64,000 bases of DNA. Source: Sphingomonas daechungensis. GTDB taxonomy: Bacteria > Pseudomonadota > Alphaproteobacteria > Sphingomonadales > Sphingomonadaceae. The position numbers were made by a program, and so were the translations under genes. The DNA lies in the NCBI RefSeq assembly GCF_014489495.1, contig NZ_CP060780.1, positions 2,801,001 to 2,865,000 on the forward strand, read 5' to 3'. This document shows positions 1,157 to 11,501 of this stretch, in pieces. The notes beneath the pieces were generated by a model. It was not told where the DNA came from and ran no database searches. It was given only the letters and a program-made list of their open reading frames with translations. Position 1 is the first letter of the stretch; each line of letters opens with the position of its first letter.

Positions 1157-1405
1157 ATGACCGACCGTGACGAAACCGAAGCCAGGATCCGCGACCTGAT
1201 CGACCCCTTCAACAAAAAGGGCGTCGCAATCTCCGGCGACACGCGCTTTGCGCAGGACCTCGAATGGGACAGCCTGACCGTGATGGACTTCGTCGCCTCG
1301 GTCGAGGACGAGTTCGACATCCTGATCAGCATGAACCGCGCAGCGGAGATCGAGACGGTCGACCAGCTCGTCGATGCCGTCCGCCAGCTTGAGGGCGAGC
1401 GTTGA
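1157..1405 (+). CDS. Acyl carrier protein linked to serine palmitoyltransferase
   Basis: An 82-residue acyl carrier protein. The phosphopantetheine attachment serine is in LEWDSLTVMDF at about residue 39, with acidic helices on both sides, as expected for this four-helix fold. The ATG at 1154 neighbours and the one used at 1157 agree with the usual length. The stop overlaps the next gene, serine palmitoyltransferase, as TTGA. In Caulobacter and sphingomonads a dedicated carrier protein sits beside this enzyme and delivers the acyl chain for sphingoid base synthesis, which is the role inferred here. It differs from the general fatty-acid AcpP, which carries a more acidic DSLD/V motif. Confidence 0.85.
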   Translation: MTDRDETEARIRDLIDPFNKKGVAISGDTRFAQDLEWDSLTVMDFVASVEDEFDILISMNRAAEIETVDQLVDAVRQLEGER

Positions 1406-2601
1406 GCGACCTTTTCTCCAAGTTCGACGACCTCATCGCGCTGCGCGAAGGTCTCCTTTCGACTGGCGTCACCGACCCGTTCAACCTGGTGATGGAAAAG
1501 GTCGAAAGCCCGACGGTCGCGATCTGCAACGGCAAGCGGACGATCCTGCTTGGCACTTACAATTACATGGGCATGACCTTCGATCCGGACGTCGTCGCCG
1601 CCGGCAAGAAGGCGCTCGACGAGTTTGGCTCAGGCACCACCGGCAGCCGCGTGCTCAACGGCACCTACGCCGGCCACCGCGCCGTCGAGGATGCGCTCAA
1701 GGATTTCTACGCCATGGACCATGCCATGGTGTTTTCGACGGGATACCAGGCGAACCTCGGCATCATTTCGACGATCGCCGGCAAGGATGACTACATCATC
1801 CTCGACATCGACAGCCACGCGTCGATCTACGACGGCTGCGCGATGGGCAATGCGCAGGTTGTCCCCTTCCGCCACAACGACATCGAGGCGCTCGAAAAAA
1901 GGCTGAAGCGCGTGCCCGAAGGGGCCGGCAAGCTGGTCGTCCTGGAAGGCGTCTATTCGATGCTGGGCGACATCGCTCCGCTGAAGGAAATGGTCCGGGT
2001 CTCCAAGGACAACGGCGCGATGGTCCTCGTCGACGAGGCTCACTCGATGGGCTTCATCGGAGAGCATGGCCGTGGCGTCGCCGAAGCCCAGGGCGTGATG
2101 GACGACGTCGATTTCATCATCGGCACCTTCTCCAAGTCGGTCGGCACCGTCGGTGGCTTCTGCGTCTCCAACCATCCAAAGTTCGAGATCCTGCGGCTGG
2201 TCTGCCGCCCTTACGTCTTCACCGCCTCGCTTCCACCCTCGGTGGTCGCGACCGCCGCGACCTCGATCCGCAAGCTTATGAATGCCGCCGACAAGCGCGC
2301 GCATCTGTGGGAGAATTCGAAGCGGCTGCACGCGGGCCTCCGCCAGCTTGGCTTCACGCTCGGCACCGACGAGCCGCAGTCCGCCATCATCGCCGTCATC
2401 ATGCCCGACCTCGAAACCGGCGCCGCAATGTGGGAAGCGCTTCTGAAGGAAGGCCTCTACGTCAATCTCGCCCGGCCGCCCGCGACACCTGCCGGAATGA
2501 CGCTTTTGCGCTGTTCCTTGTGTGCGGAGCACAGCAGTGAGCAGGTTGAAGAGATACTCGGAATGTTCGCTGCGGCGGGCCGTGCGACTGGCTGTATATA
2601 A
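1402..2601 (+). CDS. spt: Serine palmitoyltransferase
   Basis: A 399-residue PLP enzyme of the alpha-oxoamine synthase family. It condenses serine with a palmitoyl thioester to give 3-ketosphinganine, the committed step of sphingolipid synthesis. Visible are GTYNYMGMTFDP near the N-terminus, the PLP-contacting VDEAHSMGFIGEHGRG at about residue 210 and the Schiff-base lysine in GTFSKSVGTVGGF at about 245. Translation starts at a TTG that overlaps the acyl carrier protein stop (TTGA), so the two are probably coupled. 2-amino-3-ketobutyrate CoA ligase and 5-aminolevulinate synthase share the fold, but the partner carrier protein and the sphingomonad setting favour serine palmitoyltransferase. 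The reading frame is intact. Confidence 0.9.
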   Translation: MSDLFSKFDDLIALREGLLSTGVTDPFNLVMEKVESPTVAICNGKRTILLGTYNYMGMTFDPDVVAAGKKALDEFGSGTTGSRVLNGTYAGHRAVEDALKDFYAMDHAMVFSTGYQANLGIISTIAGKDDYIILDIDSHASIYDGCAMGNAQVVPFRHNDIEALEKRLKRVPEGAGKLVVLEGVYSMLGDIAPLKEMVRVSKDNGAMVLVDEAHSMGFIGEHGRGVAEAQGVMDDVDFIIGTFSKSVGTVGGFCVSNHPKFEILRLVCRPYVFTASLPPSVVATAATSIRKLMNAADKRAHLWENSKRLHAGLRQLGFTLGTDEPQSAIIAVIMPDLETGAAMWEALLKEGLYVNLARPPATPAGMTLLRCSLCAEHSSEQVEEILGMFAAAGRATGCI

Positions 2602-2651: not shown

Positions 2652-4635
2652 ATGACGCCCAGTGGGGACGATCTCCAGTTCGACTGGCGACGGGGTGGGG
2701 CAGCAGCAGGGGCGCTTCTTGCCACCCTTATCCTGCTCGCCATGGTCACTCTTGTCGCCATGTCCAATGGCGCGCGCGACAGTGCGCTCCAGGGCGAGCG
2801 CCACGCTTACGACGTCAACCTGCTGACCCGCGCGGTCGATGCGAGCATCTCCAGAGCCGAAGCTGGACTCGGCCGCTTCGTCCTCGACGAGGAGGTGAAG
2901 ACCAGCGGCAATATTTATTACAGCCAATGGCGGCTCGCCGGACAGCAGATCTATCAGCTGGAACGCCTCGTCCGGTCAGACCCGAGCAGCGCCAGCGGGT
3001 GATGGAGCTGATGCGGCTATACCAGATCCGCGGCGAGGAATTCGCCCTCGCCGCCCGAGCGACGGTCGCTAAGCAAGGGTCCGGCGGCACCGGCTACTTC
3101 TATCAAGCCGCCCAGTCTCCCGTGGGTGTCGACCTCTCGGTCAAGCTCGCGGAGATTGCTGCGGCGGAACGCACGCTGCTTCGCCAGCGGATGGAACAGA
3201 CCAAGTTCTTCTCGGCGCAGGCCGACCGCCTGACCGACTATTTGAGCTGGCTTGGCGTCATCGTCGGGCTCGGCGCGATCCTCCTTGGCTTTGTCTCTGT
3301 CCAGGCCATCCGCCAGTTCGCCTACGCGAAGCGGCTCGCCGAGTCCGAAACGGAGCGCGCGGAACTGCTGGAAGAGCGCGTCACCGAGCGCACTCGCGAG
3401 CTCAGCGAGGCCAACGTTGCCCTGAAGGCCGAGATCGAGGAGCGCGAGGCAGCGGAAGCGCAGCTGCGCCAGGTTCAGAAGATGGAAGCGGTCGGTCAGC
3501 TGACGGGCGGCATCGCGCACGACTTCAACAACATGCTCGCGGTGGTCGTCGGCGGCATCGACCTTGCCCGCCGGCGTCTCAACGGGCCGCGCCGCGAGGT
3601 GCTCAACCATCTCAACAACGCAATGGAGGGCGCGACGCGCGCGGCCGCCCTCACCCGCCGCTTGCTATCCTTCGCCCGGTCGGAGCCGCTACTGCCGGAG
3701 CGCGTCGACAGCCGCGAACTTGTGTCGGGAATGTCCGACCTCCTCGACCGCACGCTCGGCGAGCGGATCCATGTCGAGGTCGATCTCGATCCGGACGTCT
3801 GGCCGATCTACGTCGACCCGCATCAGCTCGAGAACGCCATCGTCAACCTGGCGGTCAACGCGCGCGATGCGATGAGCGGCGAAGGCCTGATGCGGATTAC
3901 CGCGAGCAACCAGGCGCTCACAGCCAATGAAGTCGGCGATGTCCGTGCCGGCGATTATGTCCGCATTTCGGTGACCGACACCGGCTGCGGAATGTCAGCC
4001 GAGGTCATGGAACGGGCGTTCGAGCCGTTCTTCACCACCAAGCCGGTCGGCAAGGGCACCGGCCTCGGCCTCAGCCAGATCTTCGGCTTCGCCCACCAGT
4101 CCGGCGGCGAGGTCGGCATCCAGAGCGAAGAAGGCAAGGGAACCACGGTTTCCATCTATCTTCCACGGACGATCGCCGCAGAGACGCCCGTCCGCCTGCA
4201 TCCGACCGTCCAGCGTGCGGATAATGAAGCGCATGTGCCCGGCGCACGCATCCTGGTCGTCGAAGACGATCCTCGCGTGCGGTCGTCGACCATCGAGGCG
4301 CTGCAGGATCTCGACTACGACCCGGTCGCCTGCAGCAGTGGTGCAGAAGCGATCGAGATCTTCGCGAACCAGCAGTTCGACCTCGTCATTTCGGACGTCA
4401 TCATGCCCGAGATGACGGGACCCGAGCTGATCAAGCACCTGAAGCAGTCCCACGACGACTTCGCGGTCCTCTTCGTCACCGGCTATTTCGGGAGGGCGAA
4501 ACGGGCGACCTCGTCGGTCACGAACTGCTGCGCAAGCCGTTCACGGTCGGCGCGCTTGCGAACGCCGTGGCGATCGCGCTTTCCCGCCGGCCTACCGAAC
4601 CGCGCCGGACCGGAGGAGCCGCGGCAGCAGGCTGA
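2652..4635 (+). CDS. CHASE3-type hybrid histidine kinase (two frameshifts)
   Basis: One gene read in three frames, with breaks near 2980 and 4490. The N-terminus has a membrane helix at residues 15-37, a helical CHASE3-like periplasmic sensor, a second helix (SWLGVIVGLGAILLGFV) and a coiled coil. Next come a dimerization helix with the phosphorylatable histidine in [11 protein letters not shown], an ATPase domain with VNARDAM, DTGCGM and GKGTGLGLSQIFGF, and a C-terminal receiver with VVEDD and the phosphoacceptor in ISDVIMPEMTG. The last part, with the receiver lysine in ELLRKPFTVG, lies in frame 1 and ends at 4635. The signal is unknown. It lies just downstream of serine palmitoyltransferase and overlaps the convergent nucleotidyltransferase gene by 44 bases. 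Confidence 0.85.
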
Positions 4636-5455
4636 TCGCGGCCAGCAGCGGCCACTTTCGCTGCCACGGCTTGAGCTCGATATCCGTTCCCGCATGCCGA
4701 TTGATTTTCCAGGCGATATAATCGGCGCCTCCGGCGAAGGTGAAGCTGGCCTTCGCAAGACGCGCGACGGACAGCAGTTTCCCTTCCACCCGTCGACGCG
4801 CCCAGCTCGTCGGTCGCGCGAGCAACGCCGGAACTGCGGCAATGGCAGGCTCGCTGAAGCGCTCGTAACGCTCACGATCGGCATCGACGACGGAGCCGCT
4901 ACGGCCTTTCCGCTCGGCGCGCAGCTCGGCGGAATAGGTGAGCGAGAAGGCACGCCGCCACCATTCCAGCGGGCTCTCGCCATCCACCTGACCGGCCGCC
5001 GCGAGCAAGGTCGGGGCCGCGCGGGAGATTGCCGCAATTGCCGCCGACCGCGCCTCGGCATCCGCCGACCACGCCAGCCGCGACGGCTGCGCGAAGCGGG
5101 CCCACACCGACACGTTGCGAGTCTCGGGACCGTTCAGCCGATAGAAGTCGCTCTCGCAGAGCACGGCATATTTGGCGACCAAGCCATCATGCTCGAAATA
5201 GAAGACGTTGGGCGGGATCATCGCGTTGGCCGGGGCCAGCCACGTCTTGCCGAAAGCTTCGCGGTAGCTGGAGACGATCAGGTAGAAATCGAGCATCAGC
5301 CCTTCGAGCTTCTTCTCCCGAAGGCAAGATCCGTAGAAAAGGACCGCGCGGGAGGCCTGTCCGTATTTCGCGGCAATCGCAGCGGCCATGCCGGTGACCT
5401 GACTATCGACGGGCGTCGACAGTTCTTCAGCGACGAGATCGCGCAAGGCAGGCAT
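4592..5455 (-). CDS. Tam41-like lipid nucleotidyltransferase
   Basis: A 287-residue protein with FYGSCLREKKLEG-LMLDFYLIV at residues 40-62, the glycine-serine and aspartate pattern of polymerase-beta-type nucleotidyltransferases. Further on, LVAKYAVLCESDFYRL and FAQPSRL match the order of conserved blocks in Tam41, the mitochondrial CTP:phosphatidate cytidylyltransferase that makes CDP-diacylglycerol. Its ATG lies one base past the stop of the lipid kinase gene, so the two form an operon and probably act in sequence: kinase makes a lipid phosphate, this enzyme activates it with CTP. The substrate could be phosphatidate or a ceramide phosphate. The Tam41 resemblance is motif-level only. Confidence 0.55.
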   Translation of the reverse strand: MPALRDLVAEELSTPVDSQVTGMAAAIAAKYGQASRAVLFYGSCLREKKLEGLMLDFYLIVSSYREAFGKTWLAPANAMIPPNVFYFEHDGLVAKYAVLCESDFYRLNGPETRNVSVWARFAQPSRLAWSADAEARSAAIAAISRAAPTLLAAAGQVDGESPLEWWRRAFSLTYSAELRAERKGRSGSVVDADRERYERFSEPAIAAVPALLARPTSWARRRVEGKLLSVARLAKASFTFAGGADYIAWKINRHAGTDIELKPWQRKWPLLAAISLLPRLLRSGAVR

Positions 5456-5456
5456 G

Positions 5457-6440
5457 TCAGGCCGCGAGGCGGACGAACGACAACGGCTGCGCTGAACTCA
5501 GGGTGATTGGGCGGCCGACCTTGGTCTGGAACATCTCGCCATCCAGGATGAGGTTCGTGTTCTCGCCCTCGATGCTGATCTCGTCAGCCTCTTCGAAATG
5601 CACTCCGCGCAACCGCGCAACGCCGAGCTTGCCGAGCGCATTCGCAACCACGGCCTTGATCAGCGACACCGGGCGCTCTTCGATCGCTACCAGCTTCAGC
5701 CGCCCGCCCTGGCCTGAACCGTTGAGCTCAGCGGTGAGCAGCATTTTCTCGAGCGTGGTCACAGCGAAGAATGCGAAGCGGCCCTGGATCGGGTCGTCCG
5801 GCCGGATCGACACCTGCATGTGGCTCGGCTCCGGCGGTAGGAAGTTGGCCTTCAGGCGCAGGAACATCCGCGCGAGGAAGGCTACCGCAGTCAGCGCATG
5901 GCTAAGGCCGTTGGGCAGACCGAGCGGGTAAATCTTGTCCCGGCAGTACAGCATCGTGTCGGCAAGGCCCGCGCCGCCGAGGAACATGCCGATCACCGGA
6001 CGCGAAGTCGGATCGCAGCGGAGCGCAATCAGCTCCCGCGCGACGATATGCGGGCTGAGGTCCGACTGGGCGAGTTTCGCCAGCTTTTCGAGCGCCTCGA
6101 TCGGATCGCCGTGCGAGCCGAGATCAATGGCGATCAGGTTGGTCTTTCCGTTCGGAAGCACGGCGACCGGCGGCGGCTCGTCCTCGAAATGGCCGCCGTT
6201 ATGGATTTCGGTCAGCGCGGCCTGGACGGTTCCGTCACCGCCATTGATGATCAGCATCTTCGGCCGGACACGGGCGATCGTCCGCATGCCGTCACCGATC
6301 TGGTCGGCGTGCTCGACCTCGTAGTGGAAGATGTCCGGATGCTCGGCGCAATACTCCCGGATGCGGGCGAGCTGCGCGATATTGCCTGTCGACTTCGGAT
6401 TGGACAGGAGGGCGATCCTCGGACGCGATCCCTCAACCAT
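5457..6440 (-). CDS. Diacylglycerol/ceramide kinase family lipid kinase
   Basis: A protein of about 327 residues with the DAG-kinase catalytic domain: NPKSTGN near the N-terminus (usually NPxSG), the nucleotide-binding LIINGGDGTVQAAL at about residue 60, and AVLPNGKTNLIAIDLG, which corresponds to PxGTxNdfA. It transfers phosphate from ATP to a lipid alcohol. The start at 6440 (MVEGSRPRIALLSN) is chosen because the catalytic domain begins there; an upstream in-frame start at 6545 adds an unconserved tail. It is divergent from lptF and forms an operon with the Tam41-like gene. Diacylglycerol is the default substrate, but in Caulobacter a member of this family phosphorylates ceramide, so ceramide is a real alternative beside the sphingolipid genes. 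Confidence 0.8.
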   Translation of the reverse strand: MVEGSRPRIALLSNPKSTGNIAQLARIREYCAEHPDIFHYEVEHADQIGDGMRTIARVRPKMLIINGGDGTVQAALTEIHNGGHFEDEPPPVAVLPNGKTNLIAIDLGSHGDPIEALEKLAKLAQSDLSPHIVARELIALRCDPTSRPVIGMFLGGAGLADTMLYCRDKIYPLGLPNGLSHALTAVAFLARMFLRLKANFLPPEPSHMQVSIRPDDPIQGRFAFFAVTTLEKMLLTAELNGSGQGGRLKLVAIEERPVSLIKAVVANALGKLGVARLRGVHFEEADEISIEGENTNLILDGEMFQTKVGRPITLSSAQPLSFVRLAA

Positions 6441-6600
6441 TGCTACACCGTGCGACGAAACGCGATTTACGCATGATTTTCGAGTTCCGTCCGCTATAGC
6501 CCTGCCAAGGGCCGCGGCACCGTTCAGCAAGGTGCAACTGCCCACTACGCTATCTCGGCCCGGTTTGCGGCCAAATCATGGTGTTGGAACGACATAATCC

Positions 6601-7803
6601 GTGCGCCGGCTGTCTTTGATCGATCGCTACCTCACGAAGCAGATTGCGGTGCCGCTGTTCGGCACCCTCCTGCTCGCGGCAATGCTGCTCGTACTCGACA
6701 AGATGTTGCGCCTGTTCGATTTCGTCGTGACGGCCGGCGGACCGGTCAGCGTGGTGTGGCGAATGCTTGCCAACCTGCTTCCGGAATATTTCTCGCTCGG
6801 AATCCCGATTGGGCTGATGCTGGGGATCCTGCTGGCCTTCCGCAAGCTGGCGCTGTCGTCTGAGCTGGACGCCCTGCGCGGCATCGGCGCGGGCTTCGGA
6901 CGGCTATTGCGGGTGCCCTACGGGTTCACGGTGGTCCTTTTGCTGCTGAACCTGTTTATCGTCGGCTGGATCCAGCCGTGGACCCACTATGGCTATGAGC
7001 GGCTCCGGTTCGATCTTCGCTCGGGCGCGCTGGGGGCTTCGGTGAAGGTCGGCGAGTTCAACAATCTCGGCCGGAAGATGACTCTTCGCATCGACCGCAG
7101 CGAGCATAAGGGGACGCAGCTCCACGGCATCTTCGTCCAGGTCGACGACCGTTCCGGCATGTCGGTGGCGGCGACCGCGCAGCAGGGGCGATTCCTGTCC
7201 ACGGATGATCCCGACGTGATCCTGTTCCGCCTGGAGCATGGCCGCCTGATCCAGAATTCGCCGAAGTTCGCGACACCGCGGACCTTGTCGTTCGATCTCT
7301 ACGATCTGCCCATCAACCTGCCGCGCGTCGACAGCTTCCGGCAGCGCGGGCACGAGGAGCTCGAAGAGCTGACGCTGCCCGAGCTGTTCCGGGTCGGCTA
7401 CTTCGACCCCAAGGCGTCGAAGGACGACCGCATGGGTGCGCAGGCCAACTTCCACTTCCGCATCGTCGAGGTCCTGATGATGCTGATGCTTCCGCTGTTG
7501 GCGGTGGCCCTCGCCGTGCCGCCAAAGCGAAGCAGCTCGGCATTGGGCATCTTCATCGGGATCGTGATCATCGTCGCCTATCACAAGGTGAACCAATATG
7601 CGGAGCAGGCGGCGGCACGCGGAAGCATGGACCCGATCCTTGCAATGTGGATCCCGCTTTTCGCGCTGAGCGCATTGATCATCTGGATGTATCATGTGCT
7701 CGCGCACCGACCCGGTGGCCAGCCGATCGGCGCGCTGGAACGTGCGTTCGCCCGAGTCGGCAAGTCGCTCCGCAAGCTCCTGCCGAAGGTCCAGCCGGCA
7801 TGA
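6601..7803 (+). CDS. lptF: LPS-export ABC permease LptF (YjgP/YjgQ family)
   Basis: A 400-residue inner-membrane protein with the family layout: three N-terminal helices (SLIDRYLTKQIAVPLFG, then NLLPEYFSLGIPIGLMLG), a periplasmic jellyroll domain at about residues 140-260, and three C-terminal helices. With LptG and the LptB ATPase it extracts lipid from the inner membrane for transport to the cell surface. The start is GTG at 6601; a TTG five codons in is possible. The stop overlaps the lptG start as ATGA. In sphingomonads, which carry glycosphingolipids in place of lipopolysaccharide, the cargo is uncertain. Confidence 0.9.
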   Translation: MRRLSLIDRYLTKQIAVPLFGTLLLAAMLLVLDKMLRLFDFVVTAGGPVSVVWRMLANLLPEYFSLGIPIGLMLGILLAFRKLALSSELDALRGIGAGFGRLLRVPYGFTVVLLLLNLFIVGWIQPWTHYGYERLRFDLRSGALGASVKVGEFNNLGRKMTLRIDRSEHKGTQLHGIFVQVDDRSGMSVAATAQQGRFLSTDDPDVILFRLEHGRLIQNSPKFATPRTLSFDLYDLPINLPRVDSFRQRGHEELEELTLPELFRVGYFDPKASKDDRMGAQANFHFRIVEVLMMLMLPLLAVALAVPPKRSSSALGIFIGIVIIVAYHKVNQYAEQAAARGSMDPILAMWIPLFALSALIIWMYHVLAHRPGGQPIGALERAFARVGKSLRKLLPKVQPA

Positions 7804-8897
7804 TCAACCTTCGTTTCTTTCCGTCGCGAAGGATCGCGCTTTACACCATCAAGCTGTTCGTCACGCGAAGCCTCGCAGTGCTGATCGCGCTGGTGCTCGT
7901 CCTGATGACGCTCGACCTGCTAGGCGAATCCGGGAAGATTCTTGCGGTGCCTGGGAACGGCGAGGCCGAGCTCTGGAAGTATGTTTCCCTGCGGCTTCCG
8001 CTCCTGATTTCGCGGTTCCTGCCCTTTTCCGTTCTGCTCGGGACCTTGATCGCATTCACCGCGCTCAACCAGCACAGCGAAGTCGTGGCGATGAAGGCCG
8101 CGGGCATCTCGGCGCACCAGATGCTTGCGCCTCTGATCCTGGCCAGCCTGATCATCGCGGCAGGCCTTTTCGTCTTCAACGAGAAAGTCGTGGTGAACGC
8201 CAATCGTCAGGTCACGGCGTGGAGCGACAACGACTACAAGCCCGTGCCGCCGGAAAGCGGGATCCTGAGTAATGTCTGGCTGCTGAGCGGCAACGATCTG
8301 CTCCAGGCGCGGCACGTCGGGGGCCGCGGCTCGGCCTTCCATATCGAAGATCTCACCATCTACGACCGCGAAGGTGGAGAGCTTCAGCAGGTCATCAACG
8401 CGAAGCGAGCCGTCCCATACGGCAATGCCTGGAAGCTCAGCGACGTCTCGATCTACAGCACGGCAATGAACATGGTCCGCCGTCAGCCGGAGTTGGTCGC
8501 GCTGGAGGGCGTGAAGCCGGAGCAACTCAAGCTCGCAAAGGTCGACCCCGACCAGCTCGACTTCTGGACGTTGCGGAAGAGGATCGATGAGCTGGAACGC
8601 GCGGGACGTCCGACGGACGAGGCACGTGCGGGCCTATGGCACAAGGTTTCCGGTCCACTTTCGACGATTCTCATGCCGCTCCTGGCAGCAACGGCCGCCT
8701 TCGGGCTCGCGCGTTCGGGCCAGGTGCTGCTCCGCGCCTGCATCGGCATGGCGCTGGGATTTGCTTACTTCGTCGCGGACAACTTCAGCCTCGCTATGGG
8801 CAACGTCGGCGCTTATCCGCCCTTCCTGGCAGCTTGGGCACCTTTCCTGCTGTTCCTGCTGGTCGGCGAGTCGGTCCTTATCCGGTCGGAGGAATAG
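7800..8897 (+). CDS. lptG: LPS-export ABC permease LptG
   Basis: A 365-residue partner of LptF with the same layout: N-terminal helices (TIKLFVTRSLAVLIALVLVL), the conserved coupling segment HSEVVAMKAAGISAHQML that contacts LptB, a periplasmic beta domain, and C-terminal helices ending FLLFLLVGESVLIRSEE. The ATG at 7800 overlaps the lptF stop, so the two are translationally coupled. LptF and LptG form the heterodimeric membrane part of the lipid exporter. The gene is intact. Confidence 0.9.
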   Translation: MINLRFFPSRRIALYTIKLFVTRSLAVLIALVLVLMTLDLLGESGKILAVPGNGEAELWKYVSLRLPLLISRFLPFSVLLGTLIAFTALNQHSEVVAMKAAGISAHQMLAPLILASLIIAAGLFVFNEKVVVNANRQVTAWSDNDYKPVPPESGILSNVWLLSGNDLLQARHVGGRGSAFHIEDLTIYDREGGELQQVINAKRAVPYGNAWKLSDVSIYSTAMNMVRRQPELVALEGVKPEQLKLAKVDPDQLDFWTLRKRIDELERAGRPTDEARAGLWHKVSGPLSTILMPLLAATAAFGLARSGQVLLRACIGMALGFAYFVADNFSLAMGNVGAYPPFLAAWAPFLLFLLVGESVLIRSEE

Positions 8898-9166: not shown

Positions 9167-10266
9167 CTAGCGGGTGGAATTCCAACTGCTCGACGCGAGC
9201 CGGCCAACCAGCCCGTAAAGGCCGCGGTGGCTGGACTCATGATAGGCCGAACCGCTGTCGAGCGCCTTGCAAAGCCGGCGATGAGCTTCGCCGAGCGCAT
9301 GGTAGGGGAGACCCGGAAGCAAGTGATGCAGCGCGTGGTAGCGTAGCCCAACCGGTGCCCAGAAGACCGGTAGGGTGGCGGGTGGCGGAACGTTGACGCT
9401 GTCGAGGAACTGGGCGGTGACCGTCATCGGCTCGCCGTCGTTCTCCCACAAATGCGCAACCAGGGTCCGAACCTGGTTCAGGAACATTACCCCTGACGCG
9501 ACGCCCAGGAAAATCAGGAAGGCGCGAAACGGAACGACGCCAGTCGCGGTCATCGCCAGCAGCGCGATTGCCCAGAGGCTGCAGGCAACTTCCATCGCCA
9601 GCCACTGACGGCGGAACTCCCCTCGGGCTGCGGACGACGGAACTGCGGATTGATCTGCAGCCCCGAATATTTGGCCACGACCTGGTCGCGCAGCACGGGC
9701 GACAGGAGCGACAGCGGCGCCAGAATGCCGAAGCGGATCAACAGCCCGACGGGAGCCAGCAAGGCGGCGACCATGAACACCGGCAGGGTCCATGGCTTCA
9801 TCAATGCCAGCGGCAGATATTCGGGATCGTTGACCGTGCCGTAGTAACGCTTGGCGTGATGCTGGTTGTGAACGCCCTCGTACATGAAGGATGGCACCAG
9901 CAGCGGAATCCCGATCAACAGGTTCCAGACCAGGCGAAAACCGGGGACCGCGTTCGGCTTGATATGCGTCAGCTCGTGGATGAAGCTACCAGCCCGGTAA
10001 AGGGCCAGCACGGCAACGACGCCGGCAGCGACCGCAGCCAGAGCGGAGTTCGCGAATATCGCCAACAGCAACCCCGCGTATCCCACGGCTGCCGACCCGA
10101 TCATATCGGCCCAGTAGATCGCCGGTCTGGCGACATTGAGGTCGCGAGTCAGGTCCGCCGCAGCCTTCAGCATCGCCTTGTCGTCGCTGGCGGGCGTGCG
10201 CGCGGCCTCGCCCGAAAGCGGACGGTTGCTGGCGCGCTGCAGCTCGAGAGTGGTCGATCCGGACAT
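9167..10266 (-). CDS. Membrane fatty acid desaturase/hydroxylase (frameshift near 9628)
   Basis: A protein of about 365 residues with the histidine boxes of the membrane di-iron desaturase family: HELTH, HNQHH and, after the break, LRYHALHHLLPGLPYHALG. Several hydrophobic segments surround them (GYAGLLLAIFANSALAAVAAG and others). The N-terminal 215 residues lie in one frame and the rest in another, joined near 9628. The start MSGSTTLELQ at 10266 is preferred over an upstream ATG. Such enzymes insert double bonds or hydroxyls in acyl chains of lipids; here the substrate could be a fatty acid or a sphingoid base. It is divergent from the GNAT gene that follows. Substrate specificity cannot be read from the sequence. 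Confidence 0.8.
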
Positions 10267-10361
10267 GATTTGACTGCCTCTGCAAAGAGATAGTGGCGCG
10301 ATCATGGCGTTGAAAGGGCCGGCTACTGGCGTTGCCTGTGGCAAGCGGCTAGCCATCGCGA

Positions 10362-11501
10362 ATGAACGCCCCCGTATCGATCCGCCCGGTCGTGACCAAG
10401 GCCGACCGCAAGGCCTTCGTGAACTTCGCCTGGGACGTTTATCGAAACGACCCGGCGTGGGTCCCGCCGCTGAAGGACGAGGTCCACGGGCTCCTCAATC
10501 CAAAGAAGAATCCCTGGTTCGGCCATGCTCGCGCGGAGTTGTGGCTGGCAGAGCACGGCGGAAAAATCGTCGGGCGGATCAGCGCACAGGTGGACGATCT
10601 GGTCCAGGAACATATGGAGCGGGGCACCGGCCAGTGGGGAATGTTCGAGGCTCTCGACGGCGAGGCCGCGGCGGCTCTGATCGCGACTGCGGAGGGCTGG
10701 CTCCGCGAGCAGGGCATGACGAGAGCCCTTGGCCCCGTCAGCCTGTCAATCTGGGATGAGCCGGGCCTCGAAATCGAAGGCTTCGACGAGCCACCCACCG
10801 CGATGATGGGCCATCATCGCCCGGAATATCAGCCTTGGATCGAAGCAGCCGGTTACGAAAAGGCCAAGGACCTGATCACCTACGAGCTCGACATTACCAA
10901 CTGGCACGACCCGCTGATCAGCCGCCTGATCGAGGCGGGTGAGCGCAATCCTCGCATCCGTATTCGAAGCGTCGACAAGTCGCGCTTCGACGAGGAGGCC
11001 CGGCTCATTCTCAACCTGCTGAACGACGCCTGGTCCAACAATTGGGGCTATGTTCCGCTGACCGAGGCCGAGATCGCCTATGCAGGCAAGAAGCTGAAGC
11101 CGATCATCTTCAGCGAGTTGGTGCGGATCGCGGAAGTTGATGGCGAGGCAGTCGCCTTTATGCTGACCATCCCGGACATCAATGAGCTGACCAAGGACCT
11201 CAACGGCGAGTTGTTCCCGTTCAACTTCGTCAAGCTGCTGTGGCGCTTGCGGAAGCCCCGGACACGGCGGCTGCGGGTGCCGCTCATGGGCGTTGCAAAG
11301 AAGCTGCACGGCTCACGGCTGGCGAGCCAGTTGGCTTTCATGATGATCGAGTTCACCCGGCGCGACGCCGTTTCCAAGTTCGGGGCCACTCACGGCGAGT
11401 TCGGCTGGATCCTCGAGGACAACAAGGGAATGCTTTCCATCGCCCAGCTCCCCGGGGCGCACATCAATCATCGCTACCGGATCTACGAAAAGGTGCTTTG
11501 A
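10362..11501 (+). CDS. GNAT-fold N-acyltransferase-like protein; candidate ceramide synthase
   Basis: A 379-residue intact protein starting MNAPVSIRPVVTKADRKAF, with a conserved N-terminal block (NDPAWVPPLKDE, LNPKKNPWFGHA, GKIVGRISAQVD) and a second half with SELVRIAEVDGEAVAFML and FGWILEDNKGM. This is the widespread YghO-like group, often labelled N-acetyltransferase or, misleadingly, dATP pyrophosphohydrolase. It has the layout of a double GNAT-fold acyltransferase. In Caulobacter the bacterial ceramide synthase is also a GNAT-type acyltransferase in the same genomic region as serine palmitoyltransferase, so N-acylation of a sphingoid base is a fair hypothesis; I cannot confirm that the two are orthologous. 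It is divergent from the desaturase. Confidence 0.55.
   Translation: MNAPVSIRPVVTKADRKAFVNFAWDVYRNDPAWVPPLKDEVHGLLNPKKNPWFGHARAELWLAEHGGKIVGRISAQVDDLVQEHMERGTGQWGMFEALDGEAAAALIATAEGWLREQGMTRALGPVSLSIWDEPGLEIEGFDEPPTAMMGHHRPEYQPWIEAAGYEKAKDLITYELDITNWHDPLISRLIEAGERNPRIRIRSVDKSRFDEEARLILNLLNDAWSNNWGYVPLTEAEIAYAGKKLKPIIFSELVRIAEVDGEAVAFMLTIPDINELTKDLNGELFPFNFVKLLWRLRKPRTRRLRVPLMGVAKKLHGSRLASQLAFMMIEFTRRDAVSKFGATHGEFGWILEDNKGMLSIAQLPGAHINHRYRIYEKVL

Follow-up and report, generated by a model that had tools for sequence, protein, structure and literature searches.

The 64,000-nucleotide window analysed here (Sphingomonas daechungensis, contig NZ_CP060780.1, positions 2,801,001 to 2,865,000) carries two adjoining genes on its minus strand that are examined as candidates for the activation of ceramide. 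One of them encodes a Tam41-like nucleotidyltransferase (NTase) of 287 residues (4592..5455) and the other a lipid kinase, probably a ceramide kinase, of 327 residues counted from its ATG (5457..6440); after their presumed counterparts in Caulobacter crescentus they are referred to as CpgC-type and CpgB-type, respectively. The ATG at 6440 was taken as the kinase start, the longest open reading frame (ORF) opening at a GTG at 6545. The junction, read from the sequence, is TGA-C-ATG, with a gap of one base. A preliminary description of this DNA had given exactly these coordinates and this spacing. Its assignment of the upstream gene to the diacylglycerol kinase family is borne out by Pfam DAGK_cat (PF00781, E 2.4e-14) and by a GGDGT motif, and the blocks that it had called Tam41-type (GSCLR...LDFYLIV and KYAVLCESDFYRL) are present in the translation of 4592-5455.

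Of 61 genomes, made up of the window's own and those of 60 relatives, 51 encode the Tam41-like protein, and its nearest named relatives, which are the best 80 of at least 571, belong to Sphingomonas and related genera. A kinase gene lies directly upstream on the same strand at 75 of these 80 named loci, at 18 of 20 loci at class level, 17 of 17 at order level and 29 of 30 at genus level, in counts that include 7 duplicates and the window itself. Chance juxtaposition of the two genes was rejected, the adjacency being conserved across the class. Scanning of 4400-6700 for promoters and terminators gave no promoter-like and one terminator-like site, not above shuffled sequences. Relatives of the Tam41-like protein with 34-42% identity were also seen on 17 plasmid records (Roseomonas, Pseudomonas, Diaphorobacter, Qipengyuania), so the gene may be able to travel; a search of plasmids with the Firmicutes Tam41 fragment found nothing.

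The AlphaFold model of the Tam41-like protein, built on an 18-row alignment, is of high confidence, with a predicted local distance difference test score (pLDDT) of 90.3 and a predicted template modelling score (pTM) of 0.89. The best five Foldseek matches in the PDB were all Tam41 structures (6ig4, 6ig2 and 7ecd; E 1.2e-6 to 5e-5). In VIA-align the model superposed on the Firmicutes Tam41 7ecd with a Z of 17.7 over 217 aligned residues (model residues 14-240, root-mean-square deviation 3.1) and on Schizosaccharomyces pombe Tam41 with Z values of 13.9 and 13.8. The next family, the aminoglycoside nucleotidyltransferases, reached a Z of 7.6, a value exceeded by none of the rows under Tam41 (ANT, HalB, MNT and others). 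Identity to Tam41 in these structure alignments is about 15%; the predicted likeness is thus remote in sequence and clear in structure, and the structural match to Tam41 that the preliminary description had proposed to look for was found.

The active site was inspected more closely at 148 loci, that of the window among them, which yield 141 distinct sequences with a fragment of the window gene (L159) left out. Eleven positions are invariant in all 141: Y41, G42, D56, P82, K95, R120, Q123, P124, E177, R179 and E181. Where the classical NTase motif has its second acid, 138 sequences have Tyr, 2 have His and 1 has Phe. Tam41 itself retains a single one of the three NTase acids (PMC11646218), and this single-acid site appears to be preserved in the Tam41-like protein, with D56 as the putative acid. 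Since this acid is kept in 141 of 141 sequences, the objection that the protein might lack a nucleotidyltransferase active site does not apply. According to the available text of PMC7018664, S. pombe Tam41 consists of an NTase part, a winged-helix part and a C-terminal membrane-binding part. The model of the Tam41-like protein ends in helices 217-239, 243-255 and 269-283, through which, we infer, it may bind the membrane.

The kinase stands apart from other members of its family encoded in the same genome. A profile of the pair's kinase, built without the window kinase and including three misassigned rows (L133, L139, L140), scored the window kinase at 280.7 bits and its own paralogues at 30.8 bits, 17.0 bits and no match. 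The clean profile, which contains the window kinase itself, gave 362.1 bits versus 32.8 and 18.2 bits, and the adjacency counts remained unchanged. The fold matches those of SphK1, DgkB and YegS at Z 21-23. By eye, GGDGT is present in the translation and the CxxxCxxC motif is absent, so the window kinase combines the two features by which CpgB is characterized in the available text of PMC10331486, that is, the GGDG motif and the lack of the CxxxCxxC of eukaryotic ceramide kinase. Among 133 distinct kinases at loci with the Tam41-like gene, 129 carry GGDGT and one GGDGS; the other three are two sequences cut by contig ends and that of locus L128, which reads AGDGT.

The distribution of the Tam41-like gene follows that of ceramide synthase. 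Across 289 alphaproteobacterial genomes, 34 carry the Tam41-like gene and 41 have a ceramide synthase match, which is found in 33 of the 34 genomes with the gene versus 8 of the 255 others (Fisher p 1e-34, a value that ignores the relatedness of the genomes). In one of these 8, G244, the match spans just 160 of 379 residues. A full-length CpgB-type kinase with the GGDG motif (245 to 330 bits) was found in all 8 genomes examined that carry the Tam41-like gene, among them six that lack an adjacent kinase and are not cut by contig ends (three Sphingobium, Sphingomonas parva, G246 and G183). No full-length CpgB-type kinase was found in the 8 genomes of the class with ceramide synthase alone or in 6 genomes of the same genus without the gene, the best matches in these genomes being partial and reaching 43.7 bits; ceramide synthase was looked at in the former 8. 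A search of 18 genomes found nothing; it was run without a positive control, and a profile of the same family worked across the 289 genomes of the class.

In four genomes at order level without the Tam41-like gene, a full-length CpgB-type kinase lies next to spt (L160 6615-7601, L161 7414-8376, L162 7978-9153 and L165 7806-8762), and ceramide synthase is encoded in the stretch as well. In all four the GGDGT motif is altered, to GGDAT, IGDKAL, LGDRAL and VGGQAI, and judging from their sequences these proteins may be pseudokinases that have been retained. With three of the four genomes coming from a single family, about two decay events are indicated. Decay of the kinase where the Tam41-like gene is missing is what would be expected if the kinase product had a use only in the presence of the second enzyme.

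The neighbourhood of the pair is that of a sphingolipid cluster, as the preliminary description had claimed: acyl carrier protein, alpha-oxoamine synthase and two LptF/LptG permeases were identified with Pfam, and ceramide synthase by its position and relatives. On the plus strand, the gene for the acyl carrier protein in the AcpR position (1157..1405, PF00550, E 3.4e-8) is followed by that of a serine palmitoyltransferase-type alpha-oxoamine synthase in the Spt position (1402..2601, PF00155, E 9.6e-52), found at the same place in relatives. Then comes a hybrid sensor kinase gene, also on the plus strand and apparently frameshifted (2652..4600, the end approximate), with HATPase_c and Response_reg matches. 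In this position, two Sphingobium loci (L119 and L127) have single ORFs of 667 and 663 residues whose starts look similar by eye; lying between spt and the pair, the sensor kinase is a possible regulator of the sphingolipid cluster. Beyond the pair, two genes for LptF/LptG-family permeases are found on the plus strand at 6601..7803 (PF03739, E 9.6e-66) and 7647..8897 (PF03739, E 1.2e-76), the true start of the second being probably downstream of the listed one. A fatty acid desaturase-like gene on the minus strand (9167..10356) is apparently split over two frames as two overlapping ORFs, the 5' part matching PF00487 at E 6.1e-12; at its place, locus L163 has a single ORF of 355 residues with a similar start, by eye. 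The GNAT-type bacterial ceramide synthase gene in the CerS position (10362..11501, plus strand) was assigned from its position and full-length relatives, its Acetyltransf_1 match being weak (18.5 bits versus a cut-off of 20.7).

Genes for the sensor kinase, the desaturase, CdsA and an NTP-transferase (NTP, nucleoside triphosphate) appear split over frames (in the window, at L152/L153 and at L172 7078-7952), and since several genes are affected, this points to an assembly with errors and not to genuine loss of genes. Maps based on ORFs overlook or break up genes with frameshifts and include some antisense frames. At several of the loci L031-L047, in Sphingomonadales clusters, a protein of about 190 residues regularly neighbours the kinase; one example (L039 549-1127) matches DUF2141.

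Relatives with a fuller cluster allow a comparison with Caulobacter crescentus. At several alphaproteobacterial loci (L129, L130, L145 and L148) the order is AasR, CerR and Spt (with acyl carrier protein where mapped), then on the opposite strand the Tam41-like gene, the kinase and a CDP-alcohol phosphotransferase (CDP, cytidine diphosphate), and then a metallophosphoesterase, two LptF/LptG permeases (not in L145), a fatty acid hydroxylase and ceramide synthase. L145 and L148 add an NTP-transferase, and in L145 the last three genes differ in order and strand. In Caulobacter, as listed in the available text of PMC11324152, CC_1162 is spt and is followed by CC_1161, the kinase CC_1160, the CDP-alcohol-type CC_1159 and the phosphoesterase CC_1158; CC_1156 and CC_1155 are assigned to transport, CC_1154 to ceramide synthesis, and CC_1153 and CC_1152 are nucleotidyltransferases. 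Hydroxylase apart, the gene order of the four loci fits CC_1165 to CC_1152, judged by the locus numbers and roles listed there. CC_1160 (CpgB) is reported to be a ceramide kinase by assay (PMC10331486), and CC_1161 (CpgC) to be needed for ceramide phosphoglycerate (CPG), from deletion and complementation (PMC11324152). Because the gene order fits the published cluster, the window pair very probably corresponds to CpgB and CpgC, an assignment made from position, family spread and the published gene roles. A CpgA-type CDP-alcohol phosphotransferase gene is present in the window genome too, about 1.4 Mb away (36% identity over 377 residues to that of L148), and adjoins an NTP-transferase split over two frames. 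This distant location agrees with the report that the orthologues in S. wittichii are scattered (PMC11324152).

In the scenario proposed here, the kinase would phosphorylate ceramide supplied by the neighbouring Spt and ceramide synthase to ceramide-1-phosphate, a reaction in print for Caulobacter CpgB. The Tam41-like protein would then move CMP from cytidine triphosphate (CTP) onto ceramide-1-phosphate, giving CDP-ceramide and pyrophosphate. More speculatively, a CDP-alcohol phosphotransferase or a similar enzyme would swap the CMP for glycerate to yield CPG, and the distant CpgA-type enzyme, together with its NTP-transferase, could extend the headgroup. A CDP-ceramide step catalysed by the Tam41-like enzyme, with CDP-ceramide as the activated donor of the lipid part, is a probable reading of the pair. 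On balance it also seems that CpgC-type proteins form a distinct Tam41-fold family of CTP:ceramide-1-phosphate cytidylyltransferases and that CDP-ceramide would be a previously unobserved sphingolipid intermediate. A second CDP-alcohol phosphotransferase of about 400 residues, encoded near ceramide synthase (L129 15615-16826; also in L130, L132 and L138), was noticed as a candidate consumer of CDP-ceramide.

The general idea is not new. The preliminary description had offered a ceramide-phosphate activating route as an alternative that its author had not seen described; the fold and the co-occurrence with ceramide synthase support the route itself, but a 2024 paper had already noted that an InterPro domain of CC_1161 suggests a CDP-diacylglycerol synthase and had proposed that it might form a nucleoside diphosphate (NDP)-activated ceramide (PMC11324152, in its available text). 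The pair is therefore a known kind in a further organism. No link between CpgC and Tam41 was found among the matches listed in the literature search. What is added here is the match to the Tam41 fold, the conservation of a single-acid site and the evidence from co-occurrence and co-decay.

Several observations weigh against the reading of the Tam41-like protein as a CDP-ceramide-forming enzyme. To our knowledge, no enzyme that uses CDP-ceramide has been described, and no paper on CDP-ceramide was found in the literature searched, from which most subscription papers are missing. Neither the fold nor the active site fixes the lipid substrate. The correspondence to CpgB and CpgC was drawn from gene order, family spread and published gene roles. 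The Tam41-like gene is absent from 10 of the 61 genomes, and in G131 (82% complete) it occurs without a ceramide synthase match. The adjoining kinase is missing at 5 of the 80 named, 2 of the 20 class-level and 1 of the 30 genus-level loci: the stretch of L118 starts at the Tam41-like gene, in L022 the kinase is about 470 bases away and cut by the contig end, in L122 it lies about 1.6 kb upstream, and in L119, L124, L127, L138 and L143 there is none within the stretch examined. At the level of sequence, the window protein has no match at E 10 in Pfam or NCBIfam, and PF09139, the Tam41 family, has none in the window's own genome. The profile check for Tam41 suggested with the preliminary description was thus negative, and membership in PF09139 proper was rejected. 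An 18-row profile of the protein found no Tam41 chain in the PDB, just an NTase-domain protein at E 0.13, and L128, compared with S. pombe Tam41, aligned in the same register as described next for 7ecd, at an E of 1.6 and behind an unrelated chain at E 0.27.

Other sequence comparisons point towards Tam41. A 28-row profile picked up an NTase-domain protein in the PDB at E 0.066 and one other chain, 7ecd, which aligned in register over K...RFxxP at E 0.32. PF09139 matched one of 28 relatives, L128, at E 1.4e-4 and 21.8 bits, below the cut-off of 24, and this relative of the window protein was also the one sub-cut-off match in 299 genomes of the phylum; it belongs to a genome outside the class and has a DAGK-type kinase upstream of its Tam41-like gene. 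A profile-profile comparison with two Tam41 fragments covered 101 columns (P 1.4e-4, probability 52), and the kinase profile, used as a control, gave a P of 0.55. Each of these lines is weak alone.

Among the alternatives, the best surviving, although unlikely, is that the Tam41-like protein performs another step on ceramide-1-phosphate, with a different nucleotide or by direct attachment of phosphoglycerate or glycerate, the latter being the 2022 model as retold in PMC11324152. The mechanism of CpgC is given as unidentified in the available text of a 2025 paper (PMC12275187) and of a May 2026 preprint (PMC13228409), which leaves room for such a step, and the CC_1161 mutant is reported to lose CPG, with no separate CPG synthase known (PMC11324152). 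However, transfer of glycerate onto ceramide-1-phosphate is described as energetically not very favourable (PMC11324152), CpgD, the maker of CDP-glycerate, is reported as dispensable for CPG (PMC12275187), and the blocks aligned to the CTP-using Tam41 are retained in the window protein.

A diacylglycerol salvage route, in which the kinase would make phosphatidate from diacylglycerol and the Tam41-like enzyme would convert it to CDP-diacylglycerol in parallel to CdsA, fares worse and is improbable; the preliminary description had put this route forward first, as a bypass of CdsA. Characterized Tam41 enzymes do make CDP-diacylglycerol (PMC7018664 and PMC11646218, in their available text), diacylglycerol kinases fall within DAGK_cat, and in fold the kinase is about as close to DgkB as to SphK1. 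Against this, CdsA is encoded in the window genome (as two pieces lying together in different frames), and a bypass of CdsA was rejected on this account. The genome has three further DAGK_cat genes, two of them above the cut-off, from which the window kinase is separate in type, and the Tam41-like gene follows ceramide synthase across the class; together these points make diacylglycerol salvage unlikely. Lastly, it is very improbable that the Tam41-like protein is a non-catalytic kinase partner or a lipid-binding scaffold: one classical NTase acid of the GS...DxD motif is left and the kinase decay would fit a binding partner too, but a single acid is the pattern of Tam41 itself (PMC11646218), the invariance of D56, K95, R120, E177 and R179 is enzyme-like, and the two genes can be separated within a genome.

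A search for LpxC gave nothing in the window genome, versus matches in 4 of 14 control genomes, an absence that is no proof because the assembly is 86.6% complete. The only PF03739 matches in the window genome are the two cluster genes at 6601-8897, and with LpxC not found this sole LptF/LptG pair suggests that the permeases of the cluster serve sphingolipids. On the same grounds, the pathway may in this lineage supply the outer membrane itself. Sphingomonas koreensis is reported to have sphingolipids in place of lipopolysaccharide (LPS) (PMC11324152), and the window genome fits such a lineage; in Caulobacter, viability without LPS is reported to depend partly on ceramide diphosphoglycerate (PMC12275187), towards which CpgC is an unsolved step. 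With fold and active site pointing to a Tam41-type enzyme that uses CTP, a printed suggestion becomes accessible to a simple assay and the prediction is a CDP-ceramide intermediate, which, if true, would be the sphingolipid counterpart of CDP-diacylglycerol.

With respect to known systems, the window pair resembles CpgB and CpgC of Caulobacter crescentus in lying between spt on one side and CDP-alcohol transferase or permease genes on the other and in its DAGK-family kinase with GGDG, CpgC being listed in print with a CDP-diacylglycerol synthase InterPro domain; it differs in having no adjoining CpgA or phosphoesterase gene. CpgD (CC_1152), a phosphoglycerate cytidylyltransferase, shares with the proposed enzyme a CTP-using step in the same lipid pathway (PMC12275187), but it makes CDP-glycerate and its fold is likened there to inositol-1-phosphate cytidylyltransferase, not to Tam41. 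The DgkB, YegS and sphingosine kinase families have the kinase fold and the GGDG motif in common with the window kinase, whereas the profile of the pair's kinase sets the window gene apart from other DAGK_cat genes. Finally, Tam41/TAMM41 (PF09139; 6ig2, 6ig4 and 7ecd) shares with the Tam41-like protein its predicted fold (Z 13.8-17.7), the single-acid NTase motif and the K...RFxxP and Y..[DE]xR blocks in register, and differs from it in that the window protein escapes detection by PF09139 and is encoded among ceramide genes.

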